DNA of 56,509 nucleotides from the IMG/VR virus record IMGVR_UViG_3300046804_003014, positions 1 to 56,509 of that record. One strand, written 5' to 3'. The notes beneath the pieces were generated by a model, which did no database searches, was not told the DNA's origin, and was given only the letters and a program-made list of their open reading frames with translations. Positions 1-56,509 of this stretch are shown here, piece after piece; position 1 is the first letter of the stretch, and each line of letters starts with the position of its first letter. Origin of the DNA: a virus. The position numbers and the translations under genes were made by a program.

Positions 1-3000
1 GTTCTACACTCAACATAATCTGCTAGTTTTTTATTCTTTAATTTTAAGAATTTTGATTTATTATCAACAACATCAACATCTAAAGTTAAATCATAGTTAT
101 TAATTGTATCTACTCTCTTTTCTTCTAAAATATCAAAAATACTTATACTATCAATTGTTGATGATCCGGCAGAAACATTGGAAGTAGATAATACCTCAGT
201 ATCGGCAAAATTCTTAAGACCACTGGTATGTAACAAGCGGTTCACTGGATTAATTAAAGTTTCAAATTCAATTGGACTCTTTACCGTATATGACAATGAT
301 TGATAATAGTCATTATCTGGAAGAACTTGGTAATCTTCATCTAATTTTCCAATATTGTCTGACCAACCATAATCTTGTCTTAGTGAATAGTTGACGTTAA
401 ATCTTCCATAGTTGTCAACTATGTCATTAATTGTAGCAATAGACCCACTTACAGAACCCTTGATAGTTTCATTGAAGTGTAATTTATAAGTACCATAAAC
501 TTTAATGTAATCACTTCCACTTTCAGTTACGGAAAGATCTACGCTTACAAATTGACCATTTGAGAGTACGAGTAAGTTTTCTCCTACTTGGAAGAGAGAA
601 GACTCCTGTGTAACTCTGAATCTTGGATAATCTGAATATTTAACTATAGAAGCATATGAATTTTGCGATGTCTTAGCAATGCCTGGATTTGTACTCAATC
701 CAGACAAATTAAACTCAACTTCTGCTGGGTTTGTATTTCTATAATCAGTTACAGTAAAGAATTGATAATCATAATTTGCCGAATTAAATCCATCACCAGA
801 AGTGTTATACTTTTGAATACCTTCAACAAAAATTTTCTCACCAACATTAAACGCTGATGTACTAAATCCAGAAATAGGTGTGACTAAAACGCAAGTTACA
901 ATTCCACTTGAAGATGAATATACAGTTCTAACTGTAACTCCATTACTGTTGTTGATAGCAACAATAGACTGTTCAGTTGCACCAAGTCCTTTTGGGGATT
1001 CAATGATGTTAACATCCGTAATTGATGTTCCATTTAGAGTTGCTTGTAATATTCCTGTGGTTACTTGATCTCCAGTCTCTGGATTGACAATGATAAGATC
1101 TGGAGCGGATGTATAATTTCTACCACCATAAGAAACTTCAACATTAGTGATTGTGTCCGAATTAATTAAAGACACTACAGGAGATACAAATGCTTCTGGT
1201 CTTAGAGTCTTGTCAGATGAATATTCAAATCCAGGATCTATAATTCTAACACTATCAATTCTGTTAATATTTCTAGATTGTGGTAAAATTTTAGCGTTAA
1301 GACCTTGAGTGGAAGCAATACTTACAAAAGTTGGAAGTTTCTTATATCCAAACCCACCAAATGTAATTTGGAATTTATCAACTCCACCTCTAGCGGTGGT
1401 TGAATTTGTCGAATATTCTAATACATCAGTATTGGAGGGAGTGTATGATAAAGACTCTGGTATTTCTTTTAATGAAAGATTAAATGATGTTGTGCCAACA
1501 CCAAATACTTGATAAGTTCCATTATACTTACTATCAACATAAGTAATTTTGGAATAATTTGATACATCAGTATCAGATGTACTAATAAATCCAGATCTCT
1601 CAATGTTATAGAACAAGTTAGATGGATTATCTAAAGAATAATTTAAGGTCAGAGAAGCATTTGTAGAAACACCTATTGTTCCCACACCACTAATGATAAA
1701 TGAATCTGTACTTCCTGTAGAAACAAATTCATTCTTAAACTCTGAGTCGTAGAATAATTTAAACTTACTACCTGCCAGTGAAGGATCTGTGAGATCAAAA
1801 ACTAAATTATTATTTTTTGTTACAAATAGTTCTGGATTAATCAATGATAATTGGTGATTGGATCCACCTGTTGAACCTAAACTTACAACTGTTGGTGGAT
1901 AGTTTATCGCATCATAATAAGTTTGAGTTAACTGAATATTGTTGTCATCTATTCTATAGACGAAATATTCACCAGTACCCAAACCACTGGAGATTAAGTT
2001 TGAATCATAAAATACTTTATCACCAGTTTTTAATCTATGTGAGTTGATTGTAATTTTATTATTGGTTAAATCAACAGATGATGAAGAAAATCCTACAGGA
2101 TTAATCAGAATTTTATTTCTAGAAGAACTATACTTGACTATTACTGATGCTGACGTTCCAACACCAACAGACCCATTTGGATTTACGCTTAATCTAATTG
2201 AATCACCATTTACTAAAGAATGTGCAGTTGAAACAGAAACTCTAGTATTAATCTTTTGAAGAGTTCCAGTTACTTGAGTATCATTTGAATCAAGTAAGTA
2301 ATCAAACTCATTAGATCCATTATTTACAAAGAATAGACCATTTGTACTAGTAGTAAGTCCAACTTGAGTTACAATTCCAATATAATCTCTTGATTTATTG
2401 ATTATGTAAACTGTTTGACTATTTCCACTACTTGGTAGATTAAATTTTACCCCACCAGAAGAATTAGATACTGTTAGAGCAAGTCCAACTGATGGTTTGG
2501 TAAATGTAACCGCTTGATTTGTTCTAAATGGATGATTAGGTAAATATATGCTTTGTGATGGTATTGAAACCACCTCAAGTAACTCACCCTTAGTATAATT
2601 TACAGAAGTTCCAATTCCAACAACTGTACCAACACCAACTGTTTCTTTTGGATTGAAATAGTATCTGTCATCTACTTTAGATTCAAAATAATCAGATTTT
2701 ACTGGTAGTGTTAAGTAACTTGGAATTAAATCCACATACGTTGATGCGGTATGAGCAGATCCAGATACTCCTCTCTTAACTCTTAAGATATTTTTATCAG
2801 TAAACTTGTTAAGAACAAAGAGTCTTTCAGTTCCTATTCCAATGCTACTGCCAATAGAAATAGAACTTGGAATGTTGGATAAGTAAATATCAGTTACAAC
2901 ACCAGCAGTGGCATTAGAAGATATTTCTTTATAAACTACTGTTCTGACAGTATTGACGCCGATAATATGAGAACCTGTTAAAGATTTTATTGATGTTGAA

Positions 3001-6000
3001 AGTCCAGATATTACAACCCCATCACCACTTAGTAAAGAGTGTGATGTTGAGATATAGGCAGAAACTTGATTTGGATTATCCCAAATAAAGATTACATTAT
3101 TATATCCCTCAACAGTTGTTTGAATGCTAGTAATATCTTTGCCAGTCAAACTGCTAACATAAGCACTTAAACCGCCACCATTTGTTCCTGTATTATCAAA
3201 CTCAACAGAATCACCTATTTTATAATTACTACCAGATTCAACAATTTGGAATGATTCAACAGATCCCTTAGTTACAGAATCAACAATTGCTGTTTGATCA
3301 ACATATTCATTTGATTCAATAATAAAATCATTATCGGCATATGTATCCGATACTTTATATGGGAAAGTATTTCTGATTAGATTTGAACTGTTAAAATCAA
3401 ATGTACTCTGATCAATGATAAAATTCTCATTTATTGGATTTGATCTGTAAGTATTTCCTATGAAATAAGGATACTTAGGATCTAAAGTACCAGTTGATGT
3501 ATTTGTGCTTATTCCAGCAAAATACGCATAGACTCCATCTGGATATTCTGGTGTTTTACAATATCTACCATTATTTTCATCAAGATCACCAGAATCTGTG
3601 AATGAATAATCCTCAACAAAAAATCCTACAGCAAAAGCAGAAGGTCTATCAACTACATTAGATGAACTAGAGGAATAACCAGTTTGTAGTAGTCTTATAC
3701 CAGAATTTTCATCAGATGGATTACTATATCCATATGGCCCATAAATTGGATTACCATCATATGCCCATCCAATAATTGGTGAATGATCTAATCCACTATC
3801 ACCAAAATAATTTTTACCGATATTTGTAGAATATCCGACAAAAGAATATTCTAGTTGATCATTATATTGAACTAATTTTTCAAATCCATATCTGGCAAAA
3901 TTATTAATTGATAATCCTCTAATTTTTGGTTCAATGATTGCTCCAGATCCAGGTGCTGTTACCTTAATTGTAGTTTTGTCTGATGTGTAATTGACCCCAG
4001 AATTAAGAACGATAACTTGTGAAATATACCCATTTTGTACAATTGCTCTTAACTTTGCACCAATACCATCACCTTGTACTTCTAAATCTGGAGCAGCGTT
4101 ATATTCAGATCCCCTACTTTGAATTTCAACAGAAACAATTCTGCCATTATTGATGATTGGTTTTAATTGACCATTCTTACCATTTTTAATGGTTACAGTT
4201 GGTTTCTTTTGAAGATTTAAGATATCGGATCCATATCCAGATCCACCCTCATAAACATAAGCATCAATGATTGATCCACGTACAATTGGTGTTGCTGTTA
4301 TGACTCCAGAGGTTCCAGAATACTCAACATTAATATTAACTTGAATTGGAGGATATTCAAAATTATGATATCCAGATCCAATAGATGCTAACTTAATATA
4401 ATTTTTACGAGTATAATTGGAAGTTATAGTTCCACCAACTCCAGCATTTGCCAGTCTAAATGCGTTATCATTTAATTTAATGACGTAATATTGATTTGCT
4501 GTAGAAAGACCTGATATTGTTGTTCCTGTGCTAGAATATACAACTTTTTCACCATCACCAAATCCATGATTAGTGAAATTAATAGATGAATCTATTGTAG
4601 ATATTCCTACAGGTTTTACAATTAGTTTTCTATTTCCATATCCACTTCCTGGATTGATTACCTTAACCGATTGTAAAGTATTTTTATCATCATAAATTCT
4701 AAATTTATGAACACCGACATTACTTGCTGTTGTAAATCCTACTGTATTAATTCCAACATAATAATCTGAGAAAGTCTGATGTAATTTTATAGTTGTTGGA
4801 TTTACAACTTTTGCATAATATACTGACCCACTTTGTAGAGTTTTATTTTGATCAGTGTTCAATCCAGCAAATGTGCCAATACTTACTGGATTATTTCCAT
4901 TTTTGTTGTATACAATTGCCTGACCATTTGATAAATTATGATTATTAATAAATGTTATGGTTTCATTGGTAACATCTATTCCACCAGACTCTGTATTGAG
5001 TCTGGCATCAAAAGACAATTCTCTATATCTTTTTCCGATGATTGGTTGTAATATTGATCCACTACCATTTCCACCGGTTACAGTTATTGAAACTACATTA
5101 TTAATATCAAAATCTTGTGGATCAACATAAACTGCTGTTATGATACCACTAATAACTGGACGAACTAAACAAGTTGTTCCAGATCCTGGATTTGAAATTT
5201 GAATAGTAGGTGGATTAATTACGTCGTAATTTGATCCGTTATTTAATATTTCTACATTTTCTATTGAACCGTAATAAATTTTATCATTAGACTTATAGTT
5301 TGTAATTTCAACACCATTAATTAACATTCCAACTGTTCCAGGAACAGTTTCTATTCCGTATCCAGATTCAATATTTGGATTTAGTGCGAATTTCTTAAGT
5401 GACTTTTGTGGTCCTATCTTTTTGCCGCTGTTTTCTAATAATGTAAAAGTATGACTACCAGTTCCGGATGAAAGTGGTTCAAACTCAACATAGTCATCAA
5501 TGGGTATGAAAGATCTTGATGAATAAAGTCTAATTTGGTTTTTATTTGTTAAGACCTTCACATAATAAATTCCAGATGAAAGTCCCGTAATAGCAGTCGT
5601 CTGTGGAGAATAATAAACAGCATCACCAGTAATAAAAGGAACATCAGTATCAAAAGATAAAATTGAATACTTTAAAGTTGATGGATTATATCCTTGGATA
5701 CGTGATCCTGTTGCTTCAGTTAAAGTGGCTTTAGAAATATTTTTAGTTATTTCATACGATGGTAAAGAGTTAGAAGCAACATAAAAATATTGATCAGAAT
5801 CATTATAAACATTCTGAATATCTGATGTGATTACATTGTTTCCATAAACAATTTCTGCGCCAGAACTACTAGCTTTATTTAAATTTCTTCTGATATCATA
5901 AGAAAGACCAACTACAGGTGTAAATCCTGCTAAGTTGTCAAGTAAAATTTCTCTTGTTAGTGTATTAATATTTTTTACTGTGGCACCACTAACTACAACG

Positions 6001-40503: not shown

Positions 40504-43500
40504 TTATTTATCGTTCAGTTTTTGCTGAAGATCATCAACTTTATGAGAAAGTTCCTTGATCGCTTCAATCAGAAGTGGTGTGATCTTTTCATATTGGACT
40601 GCCTTGAATCCATTCTCTCTTGTTGTGACAATTTCTGGAAGAACCTTCTCAATTTCCTGTGCGATGACACCAATGTCTCTACCAGTATGTGAAGATTGAT
40701 TATTCCAATCAAAACTGTTTCCACTGATAGAAAGAACCTTCGCAAGTGGATCTTCAATTGGAGTAATATTGTCCTTCAATCTTTCGTCAGAACTGTAGAA
40801 TGCTGTAATATCGTCAGTTACATTCAAGCTTCCAGTGATGATCGTGTTATCATTAATGTTAAGTTGACCACCATTGCTGTCCAGAGTCAGTTGTCCAGTT
40901 GAAGTGTCAATTGTGTTGTCACCAGCAACACCAATTCTGATGTTATCAATTGTCGCACCATCATTGGCATCAATCAGATTGTTGAATGTACTGACGCCCG
41001 TGATTGTCATACCACGGGACACGCCGAATGTTCCTGCTACAGAAACATTTCCACCAACGTTCAAGTTCTTTTCAAGTCCAAGACCACCATCAACAATCAG
41101 AGCACCAGTATCTTTGTTGGTTGAGTTTGTTGTGTTAGTGATCTCAACAGTATTATTAATCTTCAGAGATCCGTTGATGATGGTGTCATCATTAATCTTG
41201 ATTTCTTGGTTGAAAGTAACAGGTCCATCAAATTGTGAAAGAACTGTGCCAGAGTTTCCACCCTCAACAATCAATCTCTCTTTAATAACAACCTCATCAA
41301 ATACAACAGATAATCTTGAAGGATCTTGTCCAGTGATTGTTGGAGTTGGAATATCAAAGGTCTTCTGTTCGCCAGAGGATGATGAATACTTGGTATTGCC
41401 GATGAAGAAGTCTCCATCACTGTTCATACCAGTATAAACAACGGTTCCACAAGATCTTTCTTGTGCCTGAACGAGGAAGTCTTCTCTTTCTGTCAGAGTT
41501 TTGACTTGAACTTGTGGTAGACCAGTTGAATAGTTACCAGGACCATAACCAAGGTATTCAAAGGTATGTCCAGAAGCACGAATGATAGATGGTCTACGGA
41601 ATTCAACTGCAAGTGGTTTGATTTTTTTAATCAGTGATCCACCAGAATGATTCTGTTTTGTAGTTCCTAGAGCACCACGAATGACTGTAACTTCATTAAG
41701 ACTTGCACCAGACAATGTAGAGCTGGTGATTCTCATAATCTCATTATCAATCTGAATATAAGATCCAAGTGGGAATCTTGTTACTGTTCCAATTCCAGAA
41801 TTGGTTGTCTGAACGTGGAATGTAGTATCGTTTGTGACGTTTGAGAGTAGAGTTAGGGTTTCTCCACCATAGAACGAAATACCACGAGCACCTAGACTTT
41901 CTGTTGAAGAATCAGATGTTCCTTCATTTGCCGATAAACCGTGCCTCAAGATATAAAGAGGAGACAGAGATCTATTAGTTGTTGCTGAGAACGTATTAAC
42001 ACCAACTCTTTCCTTGACTAGGAAGTCCCCAATATTATTATTTGAACTATCTAGAACTCTAAATCTATTTCCGGATACAAGAGCATGACCTGATGAACAA
42101 TTAAATGTGGTGACTCCACTTACAGAGTCATAAGAACTTGTTGAGACACGAATGGATGGTCCAAGATCAATCGCATATTGGTTTGTTGTGATTCTTGGAT
42201 CACCATTTGTAATCGCAATCGCAACTGTTGTGGTTGAAGGAACCGACGAGATTCTGTAGTAACCATCAGAGGTGGTTCCAATACCAGTAATTTGAAGAAC
42301 ATCACCAATGTTTGTAGAAATGCCAGAAGTTGTAACGGTAAGTCCAGCACCTGTTCCACCACCGATCAGTGATGTATCAAAGTCAAGTTGTTCATTGTTC
42401 GTGTATCCTGAACCACCATCAATGATTTCTGCTGATCTAATACTTCCACCAGAAATAGTGACTTTTGCTGTTGCACCATCCCAGTTGCTGGTTCCATCAT
42501 TAAACAGTTTGACGTTATAGAAGGTTCCGTTTGTATATCCAGAACCACCTGTCAGAGCACTGTAAGTAATAATTCCACTAAATCCGTGCTCTCTTTCAAA
42601 TGTAATTGTGGCAATACCAGCAGTGGCACTTGTAAATGAAGTGGAAACACCAGAGATCTTAAGACCAATACCAAAATCTCTGACAAATTTATCGGTTGCT
42701 TCTCTGGTAATACTCTTCTTCAGATCATTGGTTGAAACATCGCCAAGAGGACTTCTCTTCGCAAATGTTTTTGCTGATCTTGGATTATCATCTACATTAT
42801 CTTTGTCAAGTTGTGGATAGAGATCTACGACATTTTGACTATACTTAAGACCCGTGAACTCAGTTGGAATCGCATTATCTGCTTTCAGAACATAGAGATG
42901 ATAGATTCCATCTTGAGTGTTATAGATGTAAGGAGTGATGACTTCACTTCTATAAACATAGTAGTTGGACTTAAGATCATTTCTCTCAAATCTTGGTAGA
43001 GCCGTGCTTCTTGTAGATACATCGTTTGTGAATGTTCCTACGCTATGAGTAGTTCCATTTACATCAGTGGTTGAATATTGGAATCTCTTATCATCAATAA
43101 TTGATGTAACTTCAAATGTTCCATTGTATCCAACATCATTTGTTCCAGCAGTGTTTGTAGTACTGGTTACGTTACGGACAATAATTTGCTCACCAACATT
43201 TAGATTGTGTGGAAGTTCTGCGAGAACTGTTACTGTGTTGGTAGAAACAGAACAAGTGCTAATGAATCTTGGATTTCTGTTGTAAGCATAATCTGTATCA
43301 CTGATTGATGTGAGCGTAAAGTCATTGTTTGTTCTAGCACCAGTGCTGCTAGATTCTTGAATGATAAATCCTTCGCTAGGATTTTTTGCGTTAATTGATT
43401 CTTTTGGAATAACTGCACGAACCTTATAGAGTTTTTCGTCCAGAGATCTTGGATCATCCTTTCTCTTGACAAAAGATACATTGGTTCTTGAAGTCAGATT

Positions 43501-45792
43501 TGCGACTCCCTGAGAAGCAATCGCAGAATAGATTTGGTTGTTTGATTGTGCTTTTACGAACCAGTTAGAGCGTAAAGTATCCCATTGAACTGGAGATCCA
43601 ATATCTCCAGCACTCTTATCAGAAACTCTACTTACAATACTGAGTTTTGATCCACCATAAACAGTGATCGCAGATCCATTTTCTGCGTTTGTTTGTGATG
43701 ATGCGAGTTTGATTTCGGTGGACGATTGGCGAATCGCATAATAAAGAGTATTGTCTAGAATGTTTTCTGGTAGATCACCATCATCGCTGAAGATTCTAAT
43801 TGTTTCACCAGTCTGAATCTGGTGTGTTCCAAGCGTAAAGATATTAGATGTTGGACCAGAAAGAACAGGATAGTTCTTTTCTGATACACTTCCCCCTTGA
43901 GCAATAGTTGTTCCTGATCCAAGAACATTGTCAAGCATACAGATTGATGCTTCGCTTGTTCCTGAACCAATATTTACATACAGTTTATCATTCTGTCTGG
44001 CACCAATTCTATAACCTTGAATGATGATTGGTGGAGCATCGTCCTGGTCATTGTATCCAAACAGATACAGGTGACTTGAAATACCAACAGAGGTTGTCAG
44101 TCCAACATCAAGTGAGATCCAGTCAATATTAACCTCTTCTTCTACATTTGCTCTTGGAGTAATGATAGAGGTTATATAGGCATTATTATCTTTCGCAAAT
44201 GCTTCTTTTTTGAATCCGTCTGCTGCCAGTGAGATCTGACCGAAGTTGGAGTTGGAGTTGGTGATAGAACCATCACCACCAGATTGAGCATCAAAGTGTT
44301 TGTTGAAACCAATCGCAAACACAGAAACGATCTGAACGAACGCATCGTTAGTGATTTTGATGTGACTTGTTTCCCAACCGTGTCTATAAATTGCGTCAGC
44401 ATCTAAGTGATAGACTGTTGCTGGATCAAGAGATGATGCTGCTGCAGAAAGAGCAGATCCCTTTGTTAAGTTAACAGTCAGACCTTCATAGAGTCTAGAA
44501 GTCTTATTGTATTTTACGAATGAACGGTCGTCTTTTTGTAGCGAAACAGCAGTAAACTGTGCGACAACCATTGAACGGAAACCAGATGCCTTGCTACCAT
44601 CTGCGTGCATTCCATTCATACCCCATACGGATCTCAGAGATACGTTGAAAACGTATGGAGAAGCACCTGAAACAGTATCAGTTTCAATGGTTACTGTTCC
44701 AGAGGCAACACCTGGAGATGCTGGGAGATTGTCTCTAACAAATGGAAGCAGGTATGTAAACTGGGTAGCACTGATTACATTCTGAACTTTGGTTGAGATG
44801 TTATAATCTAGAGTGCTGATTCCATTGATCTTGATTGGGGTTCCAGCAGTGAATCCGTGTGCTGAACTGGTTGTTACGGTAATAACAGTTCCTGGGGTTG
44901 ATCCATCTCCAGAAATAATCGCAGAGATATTGACTGGATCAGGAGCAAAAGCACCAACAATTTCCCATTCTGGACGCTGTTTTGCGAATCCAAGAGTATC
45001 TGATGGGTACTTTTGATCAATATCTCTACCAGACGCACTGTTAAATGCGTTTGATAGTTTGCTGTAATACATGTCAAGATCGGTGATCGCATATCCTTGT
45101 GGGACATTGACACCATCAGCATACTCAAAACAAGTCAGTTTGTGGTGAGAGAAAGTTGGTTTTGACTGATTATTTGATGAGAAATCAGCATCATCGGTAT
45201 AAACCAGACCAGTTTCATCACCATCAAACAGAGAGAACTGCCAGAAGTAACAAGCACCAGTAATTCTAAAGATTGCTGACTTTGCTACGCTAGTATCAGT
45301 TGGGTTTGGAACATATTTTGGACGCAGTTTGGTCTTTCTTAGGTCAAGACCAACAATAGATGTGCCTCTAGGAACAACGACACCACCATTGATACTGTTA
45401 AACTTATAGAGAATATTGTCGTTCTGGGTTAAATCAAAATTAGATGATAGTGTAAGAGACAGAGTATCTTGTGCTGCGGTCTCTGCTCCTGATGGTGATA
45501 CAGCAGTTGCTACACCACCTACATCTTTAATCGCAAAACCAGGTCTGTTGTCAATGACGTGCTCGCCAGGAAACAGAAGAATGGTTGTCTTTTCGGTAAT
45601 ATCGTTATTGCTGCCTCTTAAGTATGAGAATCTTGCTGACTCAAGAAGGGCTCTTTGAATTGTTTTAAAAGGTTGGGTTAGGGAGTTTCCCTGATTTGAA
45701 ATACTATCAGTAGCATCAATGTCATTTGGGTTAACATAGAGAATTCTTCCCTCTGTATTCTTAACAAAATTCTCTAACTTGTTGAGAGGCAT
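40504..45792 (-). CDS. Large tail fibre with S74 intramolecular chaperone, 1,762 aa
   Basis: N-terminus MPLNKLENFVKNTEGRILYV then NPNDIDATDSISNQGNSL is the usual start of long cyanophage fibre proteins. The middle contains Ser/Thr/Gly beta structure with GGSGYTNGT repeats. The last 90 residues hold SSDERLKDNI, a GRDIGVIAQEIEKVLPEIV block and a coiled coil: the endosialidase C-terminal chaperone (Peptidase S74), which folds the trimer and cleaves itself off at the Ser-Asp-Glu-Arg region. A GATAAATA box at 45825-45832 precedes it. Likely receptor-binding fibre or structural spike. Confidence 0.92.
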   Translation of the reverse strand: MPLNKLENFVKNTEGRILYVNPNDIDATDSISNQGNSLTQPFKTIQRALLESARFSYLRGSNNDITEKTTILLFPGEHVIDNRPGFAIKDVGGVATAVSPSGAETAAQDTLSLTLSSNFDLTQNDNILYKFNSINGGVVVPRGTSIVGLDLRKTKLRPKYVPNPTDTSVAKSAIFRITGACYFWQFSLFDGDETGLVYTDDADFSSNNQSKPTFSHHKLTCFEYADGVNVPQGYAITDLDMYYSKLSNAFNSASGRDIDQKYPSDTLGFAKQRPEWEIVGAFAPDPVNISAIISGDGSTPGTVITVTTSSAHGFTAGTPIKINGISTLDYNISTKVQNVISATQFTYLLPFVRDNLPASPGVASGTVTIETDTVSGASPYVFNVSLRSVWGMNGMHADGSKASGFRSMVVAQFTAVSLQKDDRSFVKYNKTSRLYEGLTVNLTKGSALSAAASSLDPATVYHLDADAIYRHGWETSHIKITNDAFVQIVSVFAIGFNKHFDAQSGGDGSITNSNSNFGQISLAADGFKKEAFAKDNNAYITSIITPRANVEEEVNIDWISLDVGLTTSVGISSHLYLFGYNDQDDAPPIIIQGYRIGARQNDKLYVNIGSGTSEASICMLDNVLGSGTTIAQGGSVSEKNYPVLSGPTSNIFTLGTHQIQTGETIRIFSDDGDLPENILDNTLYYAIRQSSTEIKLASSQTNAENGSAITVYGGSKLSIVSRVSDKSAGDIGSPVQWDTLRSNWFVKAQSNNQIYSAIASQGVANLTSRTNVSFVKRKDDPRSLDEKLYKVRAVIPKESINAKNPSEGFIIQESSSTGARTNNDFTLTSISDTDYAYNRNPRFISTCSVSTNTVTVLAELPHNLNVGEQIIVRNVTSTTNTAGTNDVGYNGTFEVTSIIDDKRFQYSTTDVNGTTHSVGTFTNDVSTRSTALPRFERNDLKSNYYVYRSEVITPYIYNTQDGIYHLYVLKADNAIPTEFTGLKYSQNVVDLYPQLDKDNVDDNPRSAKTFAKRSPLGDVSTNDLKKSITREATDKFVRDFGIGLKISGVSTSFTSATAGIATITFEREHGFSGIITYSALTGGSGYTNGTFYNVKLFNDGTSNWDGATAKVTISGGSIRSAEIIDGGSGYTNNEQLDFDTSLIGGGTGAGLTVTTSGISTNIGDVLQITGIGTTSDGYYRISSVPSTTTVAIAITNGDPRITTNQYAIDLGPSIRVSTSSYDSVSGVTTFNCSSGHALVSGNRFRVLDSSNNNIGDFLVKERVGVNTFSATTNRSLSPLYILRHGLSANEGTSDSSTESLGARGISFYGGETLTLLSNVTNDTTFHVQTTNSGIGTVTRFPLGSYIQIDNEIMRITSSTLSGASLNEVTVIRGALGTTKQNHSGGSLIKKIKPLAVEFRRPSIIRASGHTFEYLGYGPGNYSTGLPQVQVKTLTEREDFLVQAQERSCGTVVYTGMNSDGDFFIGNTKYSSSSGEQKTFDIPTPTITGQDPSRLSVVFDEVVIKERLIVEGGNSGTVLSQFDGPVTFNQEIKINDDTIINGSLKINNTVEITNTTNSTNKDTGALIVDGGLGLEKNLNVGGNVSVAGTFGVSRGMTITGVSTFNNLIDANDGATIDNIRIGVAGDNTIDTSTGQLTLDSNGGQLNINDNTIITGSLNVTDDITAFYSSDERLKDNITPIEDPLAKVLSISGNSFDWNNQSSHTGRDIGVIAQEIEKVLPEIVTTRENGFKAVQYEKITPLLIEAIKELSHKVDDLQQKLNDK
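40505..40512 (-). promoter_or_regulatory. Late promoter box of the 631-aa tail fibre
   Basis: GATAAATA on the minus strand, 15 bases before the ATG at 40490 and overlapping the end of the large fibre gene. Confidence 0.6.
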
Positions 45793-46150: not shown

Positions 46151-46158
46151 TATTTATT
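46151..46158 (-). promoter_or_regulatory. Late-type promoter box before the 100-aa gene
   Basis: AATAAATA on the minus strand, 20 bases before ATG 46130; overlaps the end of the HNH gene. Confidence 0.5.
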
Positions 46159-46477
46159 TTTCATTGTGAATGTATCGATGACAATTAGCACAGACACATA
46201 TACACTTGGTTATCTCTTCTTGTAAAGATTGATAGTTTCCAGACTTTATAAAATACCCTATCATTCCTTCCTTTTCTTCTGGATTTATATGATGTAAGTC
46301 CATAACGTAATGTGGATGTTCTTCGCCACATCTAGCACAAGGGACATTTTTAGCGTCTATAACCATTTGTTTTCTTTTTTGTAAAGATACATCTCCTTTT
46401 TTTCCAGACTTCTCATATTTTTTCTGGGCCCAAAGTCTCTGTGCTTCTCTTTGCTTTTCTTTATCTTTGTAAGGCAT
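46154..46477 (-). CDS. HNH endonuclease, free-standing
   Basis: 107 aa. A basic head (KDKEKQREAQRLWAQKKYEK), then zinc pair Cys47-Ala-Arg-Cys50, the HNH core DLHHINPEEKE with His62-His63, and second pair CICVCANCHRYIH. Complete HNH catalytic core. Freestanding HNH genes next to tRNAs and tail genes behave as homing endonucleases in T-even phages, so this is likely mobile. Confidence 0.88.
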   Translation of the reverse strand: MPYKDKEKQREAQRLWAQKKYEKSGKKGDVSLQKRKQMVIDAKNVPCARCGEEHPHYVMDLHHINPEEKEGMIGYFIKSGNYQSLQEEITKCICVCANCHRYIHNEK

Positions 46478-48258: not shown

Positions 48259-49107
48259 TTATTTATTGGACTCTAGTTCGGAGACCCTTTGCTTTAGGTC
48301 TTCAATCTGCTGCTGTTGCTCTTTCATTCCTTCAATTAAAAGAGCAACTAGATTTTCATATCTGACGCTTTTGAGTTCTTGACCCTCTACCTTTTCAACA
48401 CTTACAACTTCTGGAACAATCTCTTCAACTTCTTGAGCAATTAAACCTATCTGTCTACTCTGTTCTTCTGCTAATGATGGAACAACTTCAGGGTTCCAAT
48501 CAAAAGAAACACCTCTTAAACCCAATACCTTATCTAAAGAACTTTCTAGTTCAACTACATTAACTTTTGCTCTCTCATCAGAGCAAGGTGCAACACAAAT
48601 TGCGGATCCATTTAACACCCAACTTCCCGTCAGAGAACCCAGTGATGGATTCATTGTCAAATAAACATTGAATCCACAGAATGCCTGGAAAAGATTTGCC
48701 GTGTTGATCGTTGAAGACAAAGCATTAACATAAAAGTCTGGTGTTACAGTGTCTTCTTTTGGAACAACTTTTCCTCTGAATAAGTTGAGACCTGATAGAA
48801 TCGCAGAAACAGAAATATCAGAAGCACCTAAATTGACTTTGGTTCCGATTGATACGTCAGCACCAACCGTTGTATGAGCACCGGTAAAAAGACCAATACC
48901 AGAAAAGTTAGTTGTAAAGGGAGCAGCAGAAGGTCCACCAACAATAGATCCAGTTCCAATTAATGGTGTTGCACCTGGACCAAAATATCCCTGATAGATT
49001 GATGCTGTACCAGGAAATGCCGATCTAATTATTCCAGGAAGTTGTAGAGCATCTCCAAATGCTGGATGAACGACCGATAGATTAAAGGAATCTGAATTAG
49101 CAAACAT
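48259..49107 (-). CDS. Short tail fibre or spike with S74 chaperone, 282 aa
   Basis: N-terminal beta part (VHPAFGDALQLPGIIRSAFP, VGADVSIGTKVNLGASDISV), then CSDERAKVNV at the presumed self-cleavage site and a C-terminal chaperone (RQIGLIAQEVEEIVPEVVSV and a final coiled coil). This is the same chaperone fold as the 1,762-aa fibre but divergent. It starts 1 base after the beta-helix gene stops, so likely the distal part of the tail tip. Confidence 0.85.
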   Translation of the reverse strand: MFANSDSFNLSVVHPAFGDALQLPGIIRSAFPGTASIYQGYFGPGATPLIGTGSIVGGPSAAPFTTNFSGIGLFTGAHTTVGADVSIGTKVNLGASDISVSAILSGLNLFRGKVVPKEDTVTPDFYVNALSSTINTANLFQAFCGFNVYLTMNPSLGSLTGSWVLNGSAICVAPCSDERAKVNVVELESSLDKVLGLRGVSFDWNPEVVPSLAEEQSRQIGLIAQEVEEIVPEVVSVEKVEGQELKSVRYENLVALLIEGMKEQQQQIEDLKQRVSELESNK

Positions 49108-49108
49108 T

Positions 49109-49705
49109 TTACTTACAACTCTCGCCTACACCCTTGAGTAAATCCGCAAATAATCCAGGAATTAAAGCATTTAGTACTTCAGAAAGTGGAGATCCTCCTT
49201 CTTGAATTTCACCTACGACATTGATGAAGTGATCTGTGACTAGATTAATTTCTGCTTGTCCCCTAACACAAACTTTCGTCCCTGATAGAGTCAGTTGTTC
49301 TCCACTATCAATTGTGATTCCACCATTTGCCTTAAGTAAGAAAGCACCATCATCAGTATCAAATCCACGAGATTCAATGAAGATGTTTCTGGCAAGTATC
49401 TTGACGTTTCCTGATGGGGCACATAAGACTAGATCCCCATTCTCACAATAGACACCATATCCTACTGCTTCTTCTTCTGCCTTATCACGACCCTTTAAAG
49501 CATTATGACCGCAGGTGACAATATGACTTCCTTGTATATGTTCTGTCTTGCTGCCATCATTTGTATACTTACACGTTGAATTAGAAGGAACAGCAAGTCT
49601 GAACTCTGTTCCATCATCAACTTCCTTTGGACCACCTGGACCAAAAAAGGCTGATCCATGAGCTCCATCATAAAGTATATACTCTGGTGGTCTTTTCTTT
49701 GCCAT
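49109..49705 (-). CDS. gp5C-like beta-helix tail-tip protein, 198 aa
   Basis: Regular short beta repeats: GNVKILARNIFIESRGF, GAFLLKANGGITIDSGEQLT, LSGTKVCVRGQAEINLVTD. These resemble the triple-stranded beta-helix that forms the gp5 C-terminus or VgrG spike in T4. Coupled to the RlpA-like gene by overlap at 49705. I infer it is the spike part of the hub, split from the OB and lytic parts. Confidence 0.7.
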   Translation of the reverse strand: MAKKRPPEYILYDGAHGSAFFGPGGPKEVDDGTEFRLAVPSNSTCKYTNDGSKTEHIQGSHIVTCGHNALKGRDKAEEEAVGYGVYCENGDLVLCAPSGNVKILARNIFIESRGFDTDDGAFLLKANGGITIDSGEQLTLSGTKVCVRGQAEINLVTDHFINVVGEIQEGGSPLSEVLNALIPGLFADLLKGVGESCK

Positions 49706-52143
49706 TACTTTAATACACAGTCAATAACTTTAATGAGTCTTGCGGGATCAAAATCAGGTTGCTCTTGGAGATATTGATCTCTATTGATAAATCTCATCAC
49801 AGGACGAACTTTTAATCCTGCTCCAGTATCACTATTTATTGTGATCTCCGGAACTTCACCAAATCCACAACCAGAAGAAAGGACTTCCATCGCAACAATC
49901 TGACCAACTTCTGTAATCTGAACCTTAACTTGTAGTCCAGCAACATCAGGAGTAATAGAAACAGTATCAGTTGGAGAATATCCGATACCAGTGTCTAGAA
50001 TCTGAATCTCATCTAAACAGGTTACATATTCTCTTGTCACAACTTCTTCATTTGGTAGAAGTTGTCCTACTGGTTGCCCAAACTCTGTAATTCCTGAAGG
50101 TGTATTCAAGTATCTGGATCCACCGTTGACCATTACAACCTGAACAACTTCACCTTCATTGTTGATGACAGTATATCCTGATGCTCCATATCCACCACTT
50201 CCAGAGGGATTTCCATCAGAACACGTATCTTTAAACGTTACAAATGGTGGTGCAGTATATCCTCGTCCACCATAAGATAAGTCTACACCAACTACTTCAC
50301 CAATAGAGTTAATAACAGCATTTCCAACCGCACCTACTCCTCCACCACCAAAGAATTCAACTTTTGGTGGTCCACAACGGAAAGCGCCTGGGAAACATTG
50401 AACGCCTGGTGGAGGAGTGCCACTCGCAAGATCACTTCCCTCAATTCTTTCATCACCAAAGATACTGACCCCTGGTAAAAGACCACCAATCGCAGAATCA
50501 ACACCACCTAATATAGCATCTTCAAGTTGATTAGCATCTGGAATTGGTAAGAAGTTATTATTGAAATCTTCTATTGCTGATGGTGTAACTCCTGCTCCTG
50601 GAATCCAAGATTTAATTTGTGGACACTTTGGTTTGGCACAAAGGAATGATTCAAACCCAAGAATAAAATCAATTGCTTCAAATACCTTTCCAGCAATTTG
50701 AGCAACACCACCTAATACATCATTGATCGCAGATACGACAGGTTGAATGGCCTCATCAATTTTAGCAGATAGATTATTGATTAGAGCATTTGTGAATTGT
50801 TCTACGGCACAGATAGGAGCATTGATGACATTACCAATCATCGCATATAAGAAATCAACGACGAGATTTGTAAGTCCCTTAATAATTTCATTAAACTTAC
50901 AAATGATGGAATCAATGATTGCTTTGATAAATGTATTCTTAAGTGCTTTTGACAATTTCTTTAGAATTCTATCAATCGTTTTTTCAATCAACTTACGAAG
51001 AAGATTCAGAATATAATTACGCATTCTCTGGACAAGTAGTTTCAAGATTGATGCGATGATCTGACTTGTTTTAGAAACAAGATTAGTAATATTCTGTATT
51101 TTGTTAATTGTTCCTTTTACATAAACATTGTAATACTTCTTGATCGTCTTTAATGTTTCAAAGAAGTTTAACAAAGCATTATTGATTCCTGAGAGGGTAC
51201 TTTTTCCACAGGGATCTGGTAGTTCCTGGATCTGTTTCTCAAGTTCTGCCTCAAGTGCTCTTAGTGCTGTATAGTTATATCCATCTCTACACTTCTTTTC
51301 TTCGGGAGACCAAGATGTGGTTGTTTCTGATGCTACTGGGCAGTCTTCTCTTGCCCAATCTTGTCTTTTTCTTATTTCTGCTAGTAATTCTGCCTGATAA
51401 GTTTTTATCTTTTTGAGTTTTTCAAGTTCTTCAGGTGTTAAATCTAGATTTTCTGCTTCTCTTTGTTGAAATTCTTTTTCTAGTTGTGTGTATTGATCCT
51501 CCAGAAATTTAAATTGATCCTGAAGTTCATTGAATGTAAACTCAGAGTAATCAACATTATAAGTTGTTGATTCTGTTCTTCCTGACGAAGTTGTTGTGCT
51601 ATCTTCTAAAGGAACGGCATTTGGAGGAAGATTATTTGTAGAGTATGGAGTTCCATCTGGTGGAGTAACAATGTATAAAGTTTTTCCATTAGGACTTGTA
51701 CCACTCTCCACATAAGTTGGATTTTGAGTTGTCGTTGTTTCTGGTGGATTTGATATTTCTTCTGCGATTGCTCTTTCTTGTAAAGAATTTAATTGTGGTC
51801 TATCAAGTTGTCTTACAGCACCAGTTCTTGTATTTTTAGTGACTTGAGTGGTTAAAAGAGTTCCTGTTCCTGAACTTGGTCCTGTTTTAAGACCTATGAG
51901 TTCTGCTGCTTTTTCAGTTAGATCATAATCCCTACCAGAAATAAAAGGACCTCTGTCTTTTACGGTAAGAACAATTGATTTTCCATTCTGAGGATTGGTA
52001 AATCTTATTTTTGTTCCAAATGGTAGAGTTTTATGTGCCACCCAAATACTATCTCTTTGTAAGACAGTTCCATCCGCTGTTTTATTACCATAAAATCCAG
52101 GACCATACCAACTGGCAACACCTCTTGGTCTTACATCTGCCAT
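49705..52143 (-). CDS. RlpA-like tail-associated lytic protein, 812 aa
   Basis: The first 90 residues are an RlpA-like double-psi beta-barrel (ASWYGPGFYGNKTADGT at 10-26; TLPFGTKIRFTNPQNGK at 39-55; VKDRGPF with Asp63; DYDLTEKAAELIGL at 72-85). RlpA proteins cut peptidoglycan lacking stem peptides. The middle is Glu/Gln coiled coil and long amphipathic helices (370-480), then glycine-rich segments with GGRGYTAPP-type repeats. So a lytic domain is fused to a large structural protein. It likely digests the wall during injection. A late-type AATAAATA is at 52169-52176. Confidence 0.85.
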   Translation of the reverse strand: MADVRPRGVASWYGPGFYGNKTADGTVLQRDSIWVAHKTLPFGTKIRFTNPQNGKSIVLTVKDRGPFISGRDYDLTEKAAELIGLKTGPSSGTGTLLTTQVTKNTRTGAVRQLDRPQLNSLQERAIAEEISNPPETTTTQNPTYVESGTSPNGKTLYIVTPPDGTPYSTNNLPPNAVPLEDSTTTSSGRTESTTYNVDYSEFTFNELQDQFKFLEDQYTQLEKEFQQREAENLDLTPEELEKLKKIKTYQAELLAEIRKRQDWAREDCPVASETTTSWSPEEKKCRDGYNYTALRALEAELEKQIQELPDPCGKSTLSGINNALLNFFETLKTIKKYYNVYVKGTINKIQNITNLVSKTSQIIASILKLLVQRMRNYILNLLRKLIEKTIDRILKKLSKALKNTFIKAIIDSIICKFNEIIKGLTNLVVDFLYAMIGNVINAPICAVEQFTNALINNLSAKIDEAIQPVVSAINDVLGGVAQIAGKVFEAIDFILGFESFLCAKPKCPQIKSWIPGAGVTPSAIEDFNNNFLPIPDANQLEDAILGGVDSAIGGLLPGVSIFGDERIEGSDLASGTPPPGVQCFPGAFRCGPPKVEFFGGGGVGAVGNAVINSIGEVVGVDLSYGGRGYTAPPFVTFKDTCSDGNPSGSGGYGASGYTVINNEGEVVQVVMVNGGSRYLNTPSGITEFGQPVGQLLPNEEVVTREYVTCLDEIQILDTGIGYSPTDTVSITPDVAGLQVKVQITEVGQIVAMEVLSSGCGFGEVPEITINSDTGAGLKVRPVMRFINRDQYLQEQPDFDPARLIKVIDCVLK

Positions 52144-52174: not shown

Positions 52175-52852
52175 TTAGGCACCACGAACTTGTCCACCAA
52201 CACCATTGATACGATTAATAATAGCATCAATTTGTTCTCTCGGAACTGGACCAAGTTCTCCTCTTTGAATAGATCGGAGAAGTAATTTATCTTCTGCTCT
52301 ATCTTGTGGGGTATAATCTCTGGCAATTTCCGTTGACGTTGATAACTTACTCGTATCAAGTGTCATAGAGTCTTTTGCTTGTTCAAATTCCTGTTTTGTT
52401 GGTTGTGCTGGTGTTAGTGGTTTGTTACCGCCTCTCATCTGCCCACTGTAAGGAGGGAAAGAATTATATCGTGTAATGTTCTCAAATTCAGTTGATTTTC
52501 TTTCTTTGACTATTTGTAGTGACGTACTGTTTTCATAAGTTCCTCTACCTAATACCGCAGTAATTACAGGAACTTGATTGAGCGGATCTAAAAAGTATCC
52601 ACGAACCCATTCACCACCAGTCAAACCTGTTGACCCTCTACTGGCATTTCCTTGAGATGTTGGTCGTTCTACAATTGCCCAAGGTAGTTGTTCGTCTGGT
52701 GTAATTGCTCCAGATTTATTGTGAATTCCAACGATTCTGACTTTAACTCTATCTCCCCAACCGTCTGGGTCGGTCTTATCTAGAGTTTGATTGGGTGGTA
52801 CTTGTCCAATAAACCATTGATAATTAAGACCAGCAAATCCGATATTTTCCAT
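52175..52852 (-). CDS. 5: Baseplate hub gp5-type OB-fold protein, 225 aa
   Basis: The N-terminal half matches the T4 gp5 OB-fold domain by layout: LNYQWFIGQVPPN..DP.GWGDRVKVRIVGIH, EQLPWAIVERPTSQGNASRG, STGLTGGEWVRGYFLDPLNQ, compared with T4 NWFVGVVEDR...GRVRVRVVGLH...EKLPWMSV. It should plug the gp27-type ring. The C-terminal 110 residues are mostly helical (EIARDYTPQDRAEDKLLLRS). There is no lysozyme domain, unlike T4 gp5. Confidence 0.88.
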   Translation of the reverse strand: MENIGFAGLNYQWFIGQVPPNQTLDKTDPDGWGDRVKVRIVGIHNKSGAITPDEQLPWAIVERPTSQGNASRGSTGLTGGEWVRGYFLDPLNQVPVITAVLGRGTYENSTSLQIVKERKSTEFENITRYNSFPPYSGQMRGGNKPLTPAQPTKQEFEQAKDSMTLDTSKLSTSTEIARDYTPQDRAEDKLLLRSIQRGELGPVPREQIDAIINRINGVGGQVRGA

Positions 52853-54153
52853 CAGTTTGTATACAATCCGTAGGTATCTCTTACTAAGGTTAATGATGTA
52901 ATTGACTTTCCACCAGCACTAAAGTCAAAACTATGGCACAAATGTAATATTAAGTATTTACCACTCAAATGCTGATCAAATGGTGATTCGTTCTTATTAC
53001 CTAAAGTTACATATTGAAACTGACATTCAATTACATCACCAGCAACTAAATCTGGATTACAAGGAACATTAATTTGAACGACTTGATTGAACAGTAAATT
53101 ATACCTTGTCGTTGCCTCTGCCTGCCATCTTTTTGGATCATTATTGGTTCTGATAGATATTCCATCATCCAAAGCACCCACATCTAGAATATGGTAGTGA
53201 GTTCTTGTGAAATTGTCAAATTCTTCTGGGACATTTGGTTTTTTACCCAAATAGTTATTAAGATTTTTTTCTCTTAATTTTATAACGATCTCATCATACT
53301 TGAATGTTCTTGGATCAAAAAAGATATTTCTAGAAGAATAGACTCCAGATCTTAAAGCATTTAAGACACTTTGATTTTTTGATTGAGTCATTGACAGAAT
53401 CTTAAAGTCTGCCAATGGATCATCATCTCTTAAAACAGAAGTTTGTCTATAAACATACTTTGCTTGTTTAGAAATCAAATTTGAAATTGATTTAAAATTA
53501 AATCCATTTTTAGTCTCATAGAAAAAATATCCAGGATCACCGTTTGTTTTTTGACCACCAGGAGATTCTGCTGGAACAGATTTTGATGCTAGATTGAGTA
53601 AAATAAAAAATGGATCTTCAGTATTACCTATAAAATTATAATTATTTTCAGTTTGATCTATATCAATACGAGTTTGTGGAACATTGAAATATTCTTTTAA
53701 AATTTTCTGTGCCGATTCTGAAATCTTATGTGTATATTTTTTGTAAATCTGCGATTTCTCATTCTCAAAAGAATATGGAGAAACTAGAGATATCATATAT
53801 GATTCTCTATTTGATTCTTTGGCAAATCCAGGTGCTCCATCAACACGTAATGGAAACTTTTGAAAATCTAAAGTTCCACGACTATTGGTTATTTTAAATT
53901 GAACTTCTTCATTTCCGGTGATTGGTAAAGAACTTAATAATGTACCTGGTATTTGTTGTTTATTTTGATCACCAGATACTGAATTACCAGAAGGAACACC
54001 AGTGTCAACAACTAGCATATTTCCAGTGACGATTGGTGATAATAGACTCTCATAATATTGAAAAGCAATCGCTTTTGGTGGTCCTATTTCAACCCTCTGA
54101 TTATCTTTTACAATCGTGAGTGCTTCTACTTGAGCTCTTTTTAGTGCTGACAT
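52852..54153 (-). CDS. Baseplate hub protein, gp27-type role, 433 aa
   Basis: Overlaps the gp5-OB start by one base. Contains a swapped-domain hub layout: N-terminal VEIGPPKAIAFQYYESLLSP, central NRESYMISLVSPYSFENEKS and a C-terminal barrel (VNVPCNPDLVAGDVIECQFQ-like region, LSGKYLILHLCHSFDFSAGG). In other phages the last part carries the S-G-x-Y-L-I...H signature of hub proteins. Assignment rests on position and this signature. Confidence 0.65.
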   Translation of the reverse strand: MSALKRAQVEALTIVKDNQRVEIGPPKAIAFQYYESLLSPIVTGNMLVVDTGVPSGNSVSGDQNKQQIPGTLLSSLPITGNEEVQFKITNSRGTLDFQKFPLRVDGAPGFAKESNRESYMISLVSPYSFENEKSQIYKKYTHKISESAQKILKEYFNVPQTRIDIDQTENNYNFIGNTEDPFFILLNLASKSVPAESPGGQKTNGDPGYFFYETKNGFNFKSISNLISKQAKYVYRQTSVLRDDDPLADFKILSMTQSKNQSVLNALRSGVYSSRNIFFDPRTFKYDEIVIKLREKNLNNYLGKKPNVPEEFDNFTRTHYHILDVGALDDGISIRTNNDPKRWQAEATTRYNLLFNQVVQINVPCNPDLVAGDVIECQFQYVTLGNKNESPFDQHLSGKYLILHLCHSFDFSAGGKSITSLTLVRDTYGLYTN

Positions 54154-55830
54154 TTACGTTGTTGGATTCCAAATACCGGATAATGGTGCAAAACTAGGAG
54201 ATTCTGATGGGAATGGATCTTTTCTACCACTATTTACCACAACAGTTCTTGTCTTTCCTTGCTGGATAATTTGTTGAGTTGTATTGACCATAACAATTTG
54301 AATATCTTCTTCTTCCTCTAAAAGAAAGGACGTTTGTGGTGAAATTACAGGACCTTGTTGTCCAGGTTGAACTTGATAAGGTGATACTGGTGCTTGTTGA
54401 ATTTGTTGTTGTCTTTTTTGTTGCTGTAAAAGTTGTTGTAAGTTTGTAGGTCCAGCATTTAAATGATTCAAAGTGTATTGTGATCCATCTGGTGCTTGGA
54501 TATAAACTTGATTACCATAACCACTACCAGAATCTGGCATAAATTTTAAAAATTTTAGTCCACCAGTCAAAGTAATTCTCTGGTCAGGATTTCCAGCATA
54601 ATCTTCACCTTTATGAGGTCTCCCCCATCTAAAACCAATTCCAGAAGTAAATTTCAATCTACTTGTCATTGGAACACCTTCTACTAAGATATTCTTTTTC
54701 ACATCAGCAGGTATGCCAAGATTATAATCACCAACTCTTTCAATGTGAATGTGTGATCCATCTGGACCTACAGGATCAGTGTATCCAGTATATCCAACTG
54801 TTCCAATAACCTCGTTTGTATTGATAGCAACCGTTCCTGTTTGACCTGTTGTTGGTATTGGTTGCTGTGATGCTGGAGAGCTCATTGGTGTCGTTTTAAA
54901 TGGTTTAGTCAATTGTAAATCTCTTAACTGTGTTAAGAAAGTTTCAAAAGACTTATTTACCCCATTAAAAGTATCACTAGATGATTCAAGTAATAGATAA
55001 TTTTCTTTATTTTCTTTTGATAGATTAAAGAATTCTCCAAAAGCATTATATGATTGCCTTGCTTGTCTCAGTTTTGGAGATCCACCAGGTCTTGCGTATG
55101 GTGAAGAAGTGACTTTTGTATCAACAGTTCCTCTTGAAACATTTGCTTTATCTGCTGGACCACTTTTACCTGTCACTCCTTTTGATGGAATATTTGAAAT
55201 TGTTCCACCTTTTGCCTTTCCTTGTGGTGTTTTTTGTGATTGAGGATTAGGTTGACCAGATTGTCTTGAATTGGGTGTGCCACCAGATTTGGAATTTAAA
55301 TCTTTATTGAATTTTGTATATTGTTCATTCAATGGATCAATAATTTTGTTCATATCCAAGATCAATTGTTCTAATTGATTCTTTCCTTCAATCAATTTAT
55401 TTTTTGTAGTCTCTGGTAAACTTTGAATAATACTAATGAACCCATTGACACCGTTTACTGTGGTAGTAATGACTCCAACAACTGAATTAGCAACATCAAT
55501 CAGACTTTTTCCAACTTCAGAGACTTTACTAACAATCGCAGGTAAATTATTGATCGCTATACCAATTAGAATAATTCCAAAAAATTCTTTGACTTTATCA
55601 AAGAAACTCATTGGACCGGCAATAATTCTAGACTTTATATTTTCAATAAGTCCTTTTCCAGGTGTCTCTAATTTTTTTTCTTTATCTAATGCTTGTGATT
55701 TCTTTTCTCTATCAACCAATAACTTATTTTCATCAAGTCTTAGTTTCCTTAACTGTTTATTGTAACTAATTAAGGAACTTTTTATATTAGTAGAATTTAT
55801 TTTTAACTGCTGTAACTGTTGAGTTTCCAT
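54154..55830 (-). CDS. Tail protein with circularly permuted M23/LytM-like domain, 558 aa
   Basis: N-terminus is coiled coil (residues 1-60), then a hydrophobic region (FFGIILIGIAINNLPAIVSK) and Ala/Val helices. A low-complexity Gln/Pro/Ser linker (about 190-260) follows. Residues 350-460 carry all M23 peptidase residues in permuted order: GSHIHIERV (His360, His362), PHKGEDYAG (His406, Asp410), GYGNQVYIQAPDGSQYTLNH (His456 in NHL). In LytM the order is HxxxD, HL, HxH. Probably cuts peptide cross-links. The end is a Gln-rich linker. Confidence 0.7.
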   Translation of the reverse strand: METQQLQQLKINSTNIKSSLISYNKQLRKLRLDENKLLVDREKKSQALDKEKKLETPGKGLIENIKSRIIAGPMSFFDKVKEFFGIILIGIAINNLPAIVSKVSEVGKSLIDVANSVVGVITTTVNGVNGFISIIQSLPETTKNKLIEGKNQLEQLILDMNKIIDPLNEQYTKFNKDLNSKSGGTPNSRQSGQPNPQSQKTPQGKAKGGTISNIPSKGVTGKSGPADKANVSRGTVDTKVTSSPYARPGGSPKLRQARQSYNAFGEFFNLSKENKENYLLLESSSDTFNGVNKSFETFLTQLRDLQLTKPFKTTPMSSPASQQPIPTTGQTGTVAINTNEVIGTVGYTGYTDPVGPDGSHIHIERVGDYNLGIPADVKKNILVEGVPMTSRLKFTSGIGFRWGRPHKGEDYAGNPDQRITLTGGLKFLKFMPDSGSGYGNQVYIQAPDGSQYTLNHLNAGPTNLQQLLQQQKRQQQIQQAPVSPYQVQPGQQGPVISPQTSFLLEEEEDIQIVMVNTTQQIIQQGKTRTVVVNSGRKDPFPSESPSFAPLSGIWNPTT

Positions 55831-55833
55831 ACG

Positions 55834-56509
55834 TTATACAAAAATACCATATATCTTTGAGGTTATTCTCATATAAGGATTCATCATATTGACAGATCCA
55901 ACTGATGGTTCTTCCGTCGCTGTTCCTCCAGATGGTTGAACTAGTTCATCTCCACCACCCTGAACTATTGGTGGTTTAGACATCGGTATTATAATTGGTT
56001 CTTTTGAAGATCTCTTAGATTTTTTAGTTCTTTCTACATTAATTGCTTTTATTATTGGTCTTAGTTGTTTCACTGATGAAGGTTGAATAACTTCTTCCCT
56101 ATCAGGAATCATTGGAAATGCCTTTGGAACTACAGGTCCATTACCTGGATTTTGTTTATTTTTTATTTTACCAAGTTTAATTTCATTAGTAAATTTATCT
56201 AAACTTTCAGTAAATTTATTTAATTGATACTGAAGACCATATATTACCACCTTTAACATTTTATTACCATCAAGCATCTCACGGACACCATTACTGAATG
56301 TATACCACAATCTACCACCAGCATCATTAATGTCTTTCAACAATGGTCTGAAGAGCATTGCCATAGACGATTTAATGACTTCTTCTCCAGGAGCCAATCT
56401 TGCTGGAACACTATCAACTTTTCCAGATCCTTTACCACCAACAGTACCACCGGTAGAAAATTTTTGAATGATGTTTGGATATTGATTAATTATATTTGAT
56501 TTAAAATTA
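55834..56509 (-). CDS. Tape-measure-like or tail-lumen protein, C-terminal part (partial)
   Basis: Open to the right edge: upstream of the first internal start codon the frame reads GGTVGGKGSGKVDSVPARLA then PGEEVIKSSMAMLF. The DSVPA(R/M)LxPGEEV(I) motif marks tape-measure or tail-lumen proteins. Followed by hydrophobic helices and a proline-rich tail ending YGIFV. The stop lies 3 bases before the M23-like gene. A TTG internal start would shorten it; a continuing gene is more likely. Confidence 0.7.
   Translation of the reverse strand, partial: NFKSNIINQYPNIIQKFSTGGTVGGKGSGKVDSVPARLAPGEEVIKSSMAMLFRPLLKDINDAGGRLWYTFSNGVREMLDGNKMLKVVIYGLQYQLNKFTESLDKFTNEIKLGKIKNKQNPGNGPVVPKAFPMIPDREEVIQPSSVKQLRPIIKAINVERTKKSKRSSKEPIIIPMSKPPIVQGGGDELVQPSGGTATEEPSVGSVNMMNPYMRITSKIYGIFV

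Follow-up and report, generated by a model that had tools for sequence, protein, structure and literature searches.

Sequence-profile comparisons and predicted structures support the view that a phage tail protein carries an M23 peptidase domain in circularly permuted form, with the two halves of the domain in reversed order along the chain. The protein is encoded on the minus strand at 54154-55830 of the window, by which we mean the whole stretch of 56,509 nucleotides that was analyzed (IMG/VR virus record IMGVR_UViG_3300046804_003014), and its gene lies within a cluster of baseplate hub genes. The domain appears to be a topological variant of the known M23 family, undescribed in the open-access papers searched.

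Active-site motifs and homology to M23

The open reading frame begins with ATG, and its stop codon immediately precedes the start of the tail gene that follows. The 558-aa product consists of an N-terminal charged/hydrophobic region, a Pro/Ser/Gly-rich linker, the permuted M23 domain and a C-terminal Gln/Pro-rich tail. It has four histidines (360, 362, 406, and 456), every one of them inside an M23 active-site motif: GSHIHIE (358-364), HKGED (406-410), and NHL (455-457). Along the chain HxH (H360/H362) comes first, followed by HxxxD (H406/D410) and then HL (H456), and both this order and the residue numbers are exactly those given in an earlier sequence-only reading of the same DNA. The features of the gene are as follows, all on the minus strand.

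54154..55830, minus strand: tail/hub-region protein, 558 aa, carrying the permuted M23 domain (open reading frame with full-length IMG/VR homologues)
54448..54831, minus strand: predicted circularly permuted M23 domain, residues ~334-461 (alignments A1, A2, and A4; profile matches; AlphaFold2 model)
54697..54813, minus strand: half that is C-terminal in canonical M23, here first (IG-VG-TG strand and HxH strand)
54751-54753, minus strand: H360, presumed catalytic, within the first half
54745-54747, minus strand: H362, presumed zinc ligand, within the first half
54643..54738, minus strand: new joint, ERVGDYNLGIPADVKKNILVEGVPMTSRLKFT, connecting the HxH strand with the beginning of the HxxxD half (alignment A4)
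54448..54657, minus strand: half that is N-terminal in canonical M23, here last (HxxxD, GYGN, HL)
54613-54615, minus strand: H406, presumed zinc ligand, within the last half
54601-54603, minus strand: D410, presumed zinc ligand, within the last half
54463-54465, minus strand: H456, presumed catalytic, within the last half

The sequence around the motifs, IGTVGYTGY..GSHIHIE, then GFRWGRPHKGEDYA, then GSGYGNQVYIQAPDGSQYTLNHL, is typical of M23, as had been suggested from the flanking residues. The window protein has the residues by which M23 domains are recognized, namely HxxxD (H406, D410), HxH in a G-P/S-H-x-H-x-E context (H360, H362), and the HL histidine (H456), but the M23 chain order of HxxxD, then H(L), then HxH is found neither in it nor in any of 35 aligned relatives. 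A second HxH downstream, in canonical order, had been named beforehand as one observation that would speak against permutation; it was looked for, and the window protein has neither a histidine nor an HxH beyond residue 456, so that there is no candidate for a canonical downstream motif.

For comparison with ordinary M23 domains, a canonical profile was built from phage proteins (ACG-2014f, Syn1, P23-45, L107, L110, L115, and MT836576). In hhalign, positions 1-33 of the permuted profile aligned with positions 91-123 of the canonical one (score 79.9) and positions 59-120 with positions 19-83 (score 53.9), giving two non-overlapping halves in reverse order with E values of 1.5e-13 and 8.7e-9. 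Doubling either profile merged the reversed pair into one continuous alignment (score 122.8 or 124.4). Such fusion of reversed matches is the signature of circular permutation.

The same pattern was obtained with solved structures. An hmmsearch against the M23 chain 3slu gave two swapped stretches (E 2.8e-13), in which positions 60-119 of the permuted profile matched chain residues 240-297 and positions 4-25 matched residues 308-329. The matched parts are only ten residues apart (298-307), and this short gap would put the new termini in the loop that follows the catalytic-His strand and leads to the VxxGxxIG strand. With the window-group profile, the first (HxH) half aligned to residues 305-330 of 3slu and the last (HxxxD) half to 242-297; a reversed pair was also found on 6muk, and on 9gy1, 6smk, and 9m7n the pair had a weaker second stretch. 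Pfam PF01551 is matched by all 35 family members. Matches to it come in two stretches, the best of which lies near one end of the profile in some relatives and near the other end in others (residues 3-25 to profile positions 65-87 in L067, and residues 671-729 to positions 2-58 in L100). The window protein itself scores 18.2 bits over positions 2-56, the HxxxD half, which is below the gathering score of 28.7, while L067 (45.7) and L043 (40.1) lie above it. Halves of the window domain taken in isolation gave weak or no Pfam matches.

AlphaFold2 predicted compact, mostly beta domains with strands at the positions expected, both for the window domain (alignment A2; pLDDT 84.0, pTM 0.80) and for that of L067 (alignment A4; pLDDT 87.6, pTM 0.84). 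A Foldseek search of viral predicted structures (BFVD) returned the virion protein of S-TIM5 (H6WFX6; TM 0.66, E 3e-6) and the internal virion protein of P60 (L0CQF1; TM 0.66, E 4e-6), both of which are also permuted by sequence, together with a tape-measure fragment from an uncultured source (TM 0.55, E < 1e-4). Against the PDB, the 50 best matches of both models included no M23 structure, only unrelated low-score matches. This weighs against the M23 reading on the structural side, even though poor scores are expected for a permuted domain given that Foldseek depends on sequence order and that the halves are short. Circular permutation, proposed at the outset from motif order and flanking sequence, is supported by the reversed profile matches and their fusion, the reversed pair on solved chains, the two-stretch PF01551 matches, the order kept in 35 distinct sequences and the confident single-domain models.

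Relatives and distribution of the swapped order

Relatives were collected from IMG/VR scans that used the window protein, profile A1 of the domain, and a profile built from relatives closer to canonical M23; IMG/VR homologues match the window protein along its full length. In a motif census, 87 of the 100 IMG/VR loci retrieved showed the permuted order, six the canonical order and none both, a ratio that is uninformative on prevalence because the scans were seeded with the permuted family. The 87 permuted loci represent 35 distinct site sequences, some contigs having been counted more than once. In alignment A4 (35 distinct sequences, mean column identity 46%), the order HxH, HxxxD, HL is kept in all 35. 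The five metal and catalytic residues, all present in the window protein as previously noted, are invariant in alignments of 19 and 35 sequences. The joint is conserved as well, with a G(K/V)P(L/M) element recurring among cyanophage forms (alignment A4) and a comparable joint visible in the sequences of the Acinetobacter and Moraxella forms. The relative L043 has textbook M23 halves in swapped order, VVGRIGSTGRSTGPHLHIETGDGY ... GKPLSSYNMGDGLGAGRNHRGFDYPIRSGAPITLKG ... NAGYGNSIIITDGNGRQYLLGHLSSGP.

A tblastn search of 50,697 phage records with the whole window protein and with L015 gave no match, and cultured phages were reached only by searching with the domain from L043, a relative closer to canonical M23. 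A profile search of genome contigs with alignment A2 and one narrow peptide pattern gave no matches, a negative too narrow in scope to indicate absence. Permuted M23 domains were found in the cultured Aurunvirus phages S-TIM5, S-TIM54, and S-TIM66 and in P60 gp33, as well as in tape-measure proteins of an Acinetobacter Vieuvirus (YP_009593409.1) and Moraxella phage Mcat20 (AKI27839.1). In the Acinetobacter, Moraxella and P60 forms HxD replaces HxH; these lie in tape-measure or internal virion proteins, at L063:3998-4345, at L064:3998-4336 and at the C-terminus of P60 gp33 (L117). A scan with the Acinetobacter/Moraxella profile identified 369 IMG/VR relatives (the best 80 of the 369 are listed), the profile has full-length matches in the genomes of seven Acinetobacter species, and the Acinetobacter form likewise gives swapped matches on solved M23 chains.

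The proteins that carry the domain are of unrelated kinds, in phages of the myo-, podo-, and siphophage types. It is fused directly to a double-psi beta-barrel (DPBB) domain in L040 and L100 and to Phage_lysozyme2 in L032 and L106, lies beside Phage_lysozyme2 in S-TIM5 and S-TIM54, and is placed after a glucosaminidase in L043. Its position beside differing catalytic domains indicates a mobile module that has been repeatedly paired with glycan-cutting domains, and similar joints across several forms make a single permutation event probable. On balance we favor the interpretation that the permuted domains form a previously unrecognized branch of M23 that arose by one permutation event and spread as a mobile module through the injected tail proteins of cyanomyoviruses, Aurunvirus, a P60-like podophage, and Acinetobacter/Moraxella siphophages. 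This branch would comprise an HxH form and an HxD form, and its metal chemistry or substrate may differ from those of canonical M23.

Several further sequences touch on the history of the domain. Ahead of the intact permuted M23, S-TIM5 (L116, residues ~430-464) and L061 have an M23-like stretch that is degenerate (VKEGDKVEIGQIIG; PF01551 positions 45-79). This stretch in Aurunvirus virion proteins is possibly a trace of duplication; as an intermediate in a tandem-duplication origin of the permutation, the S-TIM5 stretch was too weak to call, and that origin was set aside. L107-L112 are canonical-order, cyanophage-like M23 tail proteins in which the residues that follow HLHIE (ETGxGY...IDGLNNLI) look similar to the permuted family's joint, making them candidate close unpermuted relatives. 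Residues 660-720 of a solved 'Internal protein' of 1058 aa (PDB 9k2v chain E) match the HxxxD half of the permuted profile; the HxH half was not found in this chain by sequence. This chain is possibly a permuted M23 for which a solved structure already exists.

The hub gene cluster and the proposed action at entry

The permuted-M23 gene belongs to a hub gene cluster in which it adjoins gp27-like and gp5-like genes, and this synteny agrees with its initial description as a tail protein. The neighbors are as follows.

52852..54153, minus strand: gp27-like baseplate hub protein, immediately downstream (phrog_350 tail protein, E 8e-88)
52175..52852, minus strand: gp5-like OB (N-terminal hub) protein (phrog_1922 baseplate hub subunit and tail lysozyme, E 1e-28)
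49705..52143, minus strand: gp5-like hub/spike protein with an N-terminal DPBB (RlpA-like lytic transglycosylase) domain (PF03330, E 6e-13; phrog_1922, E 3e-57)
55834..56508, minus strand: end of a large, tape-measure-like upstream tail protein that runs off the window (weak tape-measure PHROG matches, best E 4e-7)

The gp27-like protein matches 437 phage records, nearly all of them cyanophages, and from these matches the host of the source phage is probably a cyanobacterium. The corresponding position in cultured cyanophages is held by large proteins after gp26/gp51. In cultured Kyanoviridae the syntenic slot contains a canonical M23 in Syn1 and also in ACG-2014f, where a lysozyme-like region lies alongside; other occupants, putative wall hydrolases on a reading of their sequences, look M15-like in Bellamy, CHAP-like in S-SCSM2R and amidase/SleB-like in ACG-2014b.

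Elsewhere in the window, a large open reading frame at 3-5561 (minus strand) that runs off the window end carries a YHYH domain (PF14240) amid structural genes. A protein at 48259-49107 (minus strand) ends in a Peptidase_S74 (endosialidase chaperone) domain, which the C-terminal end of the large protein at 40504-45792 resembles by eye. Between tail genes, a small open reading frame at 46154-46477 (minus strand) has CxxCG...H residues and is HNH-endonuclease-like, with no Pfam match at 0.001.

We consider it likely that the window protein is a virion component of the tail or hub of a T4-like cyanophage, in which a permuted M23 zinc peptidase acts at entry alongside an RlpA-like domain. The chain would begin with the part that is normally last, the IG-VG-TG strand and the HxH strand, from which a new linker would lead to the normal start (HxxxD, GYGN, HL), leaving the new ends of the domain in a loop that, in canonical M23, connects the catalytic HL histidine to the VxxGxxIG strand. 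By analogy with LytM (PMC9662197), the polypeptide would then fold back on itself with H362, H406, and D410 as zinc ligands and catalytic roles for H360 and H456. The enzyme would be delivered with the hub or through the tail lumen at infection; the related proteins of S-TIM5, S-TIM54, S-TIM66, and P60 are annotated as virion structural proteins. There the permuted M23 would cut the peptide cross-links of host peptidoglycan, and the RlpA-like domain of the gp5-like protein at 49705..52143, the proposed partner enzyme, would cut glycan strands. Cooperation of the two activities is supported by the fusions of DPBB with permuted M23 in L040 and L100. The DPBB of the gp5-like protein is also very similar (GPGFYGNKTADGT) to the one fused behind permuted M23 in L040, a likeness that suggests module exchange between hub proteins.

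By analogy, the window domain may be an active peptidoglycan endopeptidase. The domain might instead be permuted and non-enzymatic, an M23-like structural or wall-binding tail module, an explanation that we regard as unlikely. Degenerate M23 proteins exist. EnvC, listed as a LytM factor (PMC9662197), is one such precedent, and the second histidine of HxH is lost in the related Acinetobacter, Moraxella, and P60 permuted forms, meaning that the wider group as a whole need not have kept activity. Against loss of function in the window group, 35 sequences so divergent that mean column identity is only 46% all keep the five active-site residues unchanged, and the permuted domain co-occurs with other cell-wall hydrolase domains.

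There is little to recommend a domain swap, in which the HxH half of one subunit would complete the HxxxD half of its neighbor and the site would form only on assembly. The T4 hub proteins gp27 and gp5 are trimers, and a linker of ~25 residues might permit such an exchange, but in the AlphaFold2 models a single chain already forms one compact domain (pTM 0.80-0.84), and the occurrence of the module in unrelated myo-, podo-, and siphophage contexts makes it independent of any one oligomer. An endolysin that releases progeny late in infection, rather than an entry enzyme, is also quite improbable: M23 endolysins do occur in cyanophages, for example PaV-LD ORF123 (PMC9096620), but this gene directly adjoins hub genes, its product has long structural regions, and permuted relatives are annotated as virion structural (S-TIM5, S-TIM54, S-TIM66, P60) or tape-measure proteins. 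Although the source is an uncultured contig, it is scarcely credible that the motifs arose by chance or that a chimera or rearranged contig swapped the halves of an ordinary M23 gene, given PF01551 matches in 35 of 35 members, two significant swapped profile matches, a conserved joint, and the same order in 87 IMG/VR loci (35 distinct site sequences, with contigs partly counted more than once) and in four cultured phages.

Known systems and meaning of the permuted branch

Members of the M23 family are usually described as starting with H(x)nD and ending with HxH. The window domain has both halves in common with M23B enzymes of the LytM/lysostaphin/NMB0315 type (PF01551; PDB 2b0p/4zyb, 3slu), and the permuted family shares with them the HxxxD, HxH, and HL residues and the GYGN and VG-TG-GPHLHIE context. 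It differs in having the halves swapped, a new conserved joint of ~25 residues, and termini newly placed in the loop that precedes VxxGxxIG in canonical M23. Being homologous to M23 and lacking its chain order, the family is best filed as a permuted branch and not as ordinary M23B. The Kyanoviridae tail proteins ACG-2014f US44_12 and Syn1_013 occupy the same slot directly upstream of the gp27-like hub gene and, as in the window, carry M23 within a large tail protein, but in the normal order HxxxD ... HM ... GPHLHFE. The Aurunvirus virion protein (S-TIM5 YP_007006114.1; S-TIM66; S-TIM54) and P60 gp33 resemble the window protein in having a permuted M23 by sequence, with a lysozyme-like domain alongside; the carrier protein differs and P60 has HxD for HxH. 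Their annotations do not mention permutation. The tape-measure proteins of Acinetobacter Vieuvirus and Moraxella phage have the permuted order and a similar joint (G-K-x-L ... S-x-x-G-x-R-K), but differ in their HxD and in their siphophage-type context.

Circularly permuted members are known from another peptidoglycan-hydrolase superfamily, NlpC/P60 (the LRAT/YaeF group and Tox-Act1; PMC12994826, PMC6403190), whose fold and chemistry are unrelated to those of M23 and in which permutation accompanied a shift to lipid substrates. A full-text search of open-access papers found no published permuted M23, LytM or lysostaphin, and the string 'permut' does not occur in a 2022 review of M23 (PMC9662197); an earlier description outside the open-access literature is possible.

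Few cell-wall hydrolases have been studied as much as M23 enzymes. A conserved permuted branch implies that ordinary profile searches under-score or split such domains, and several copies in cultured phages are called hypothetical or structural. The branch offers a testable system for the effect of moved chain ends on an M23 enzyme, and the precedent of NlpC/P60, whose permuted members moved to lipid substrates, raises the question of what permuted M23 acts upon. Furthermore, these findings point to a previously unrecognized, predicted entry enzyme in cyanophages and Acinetobacter prophages.
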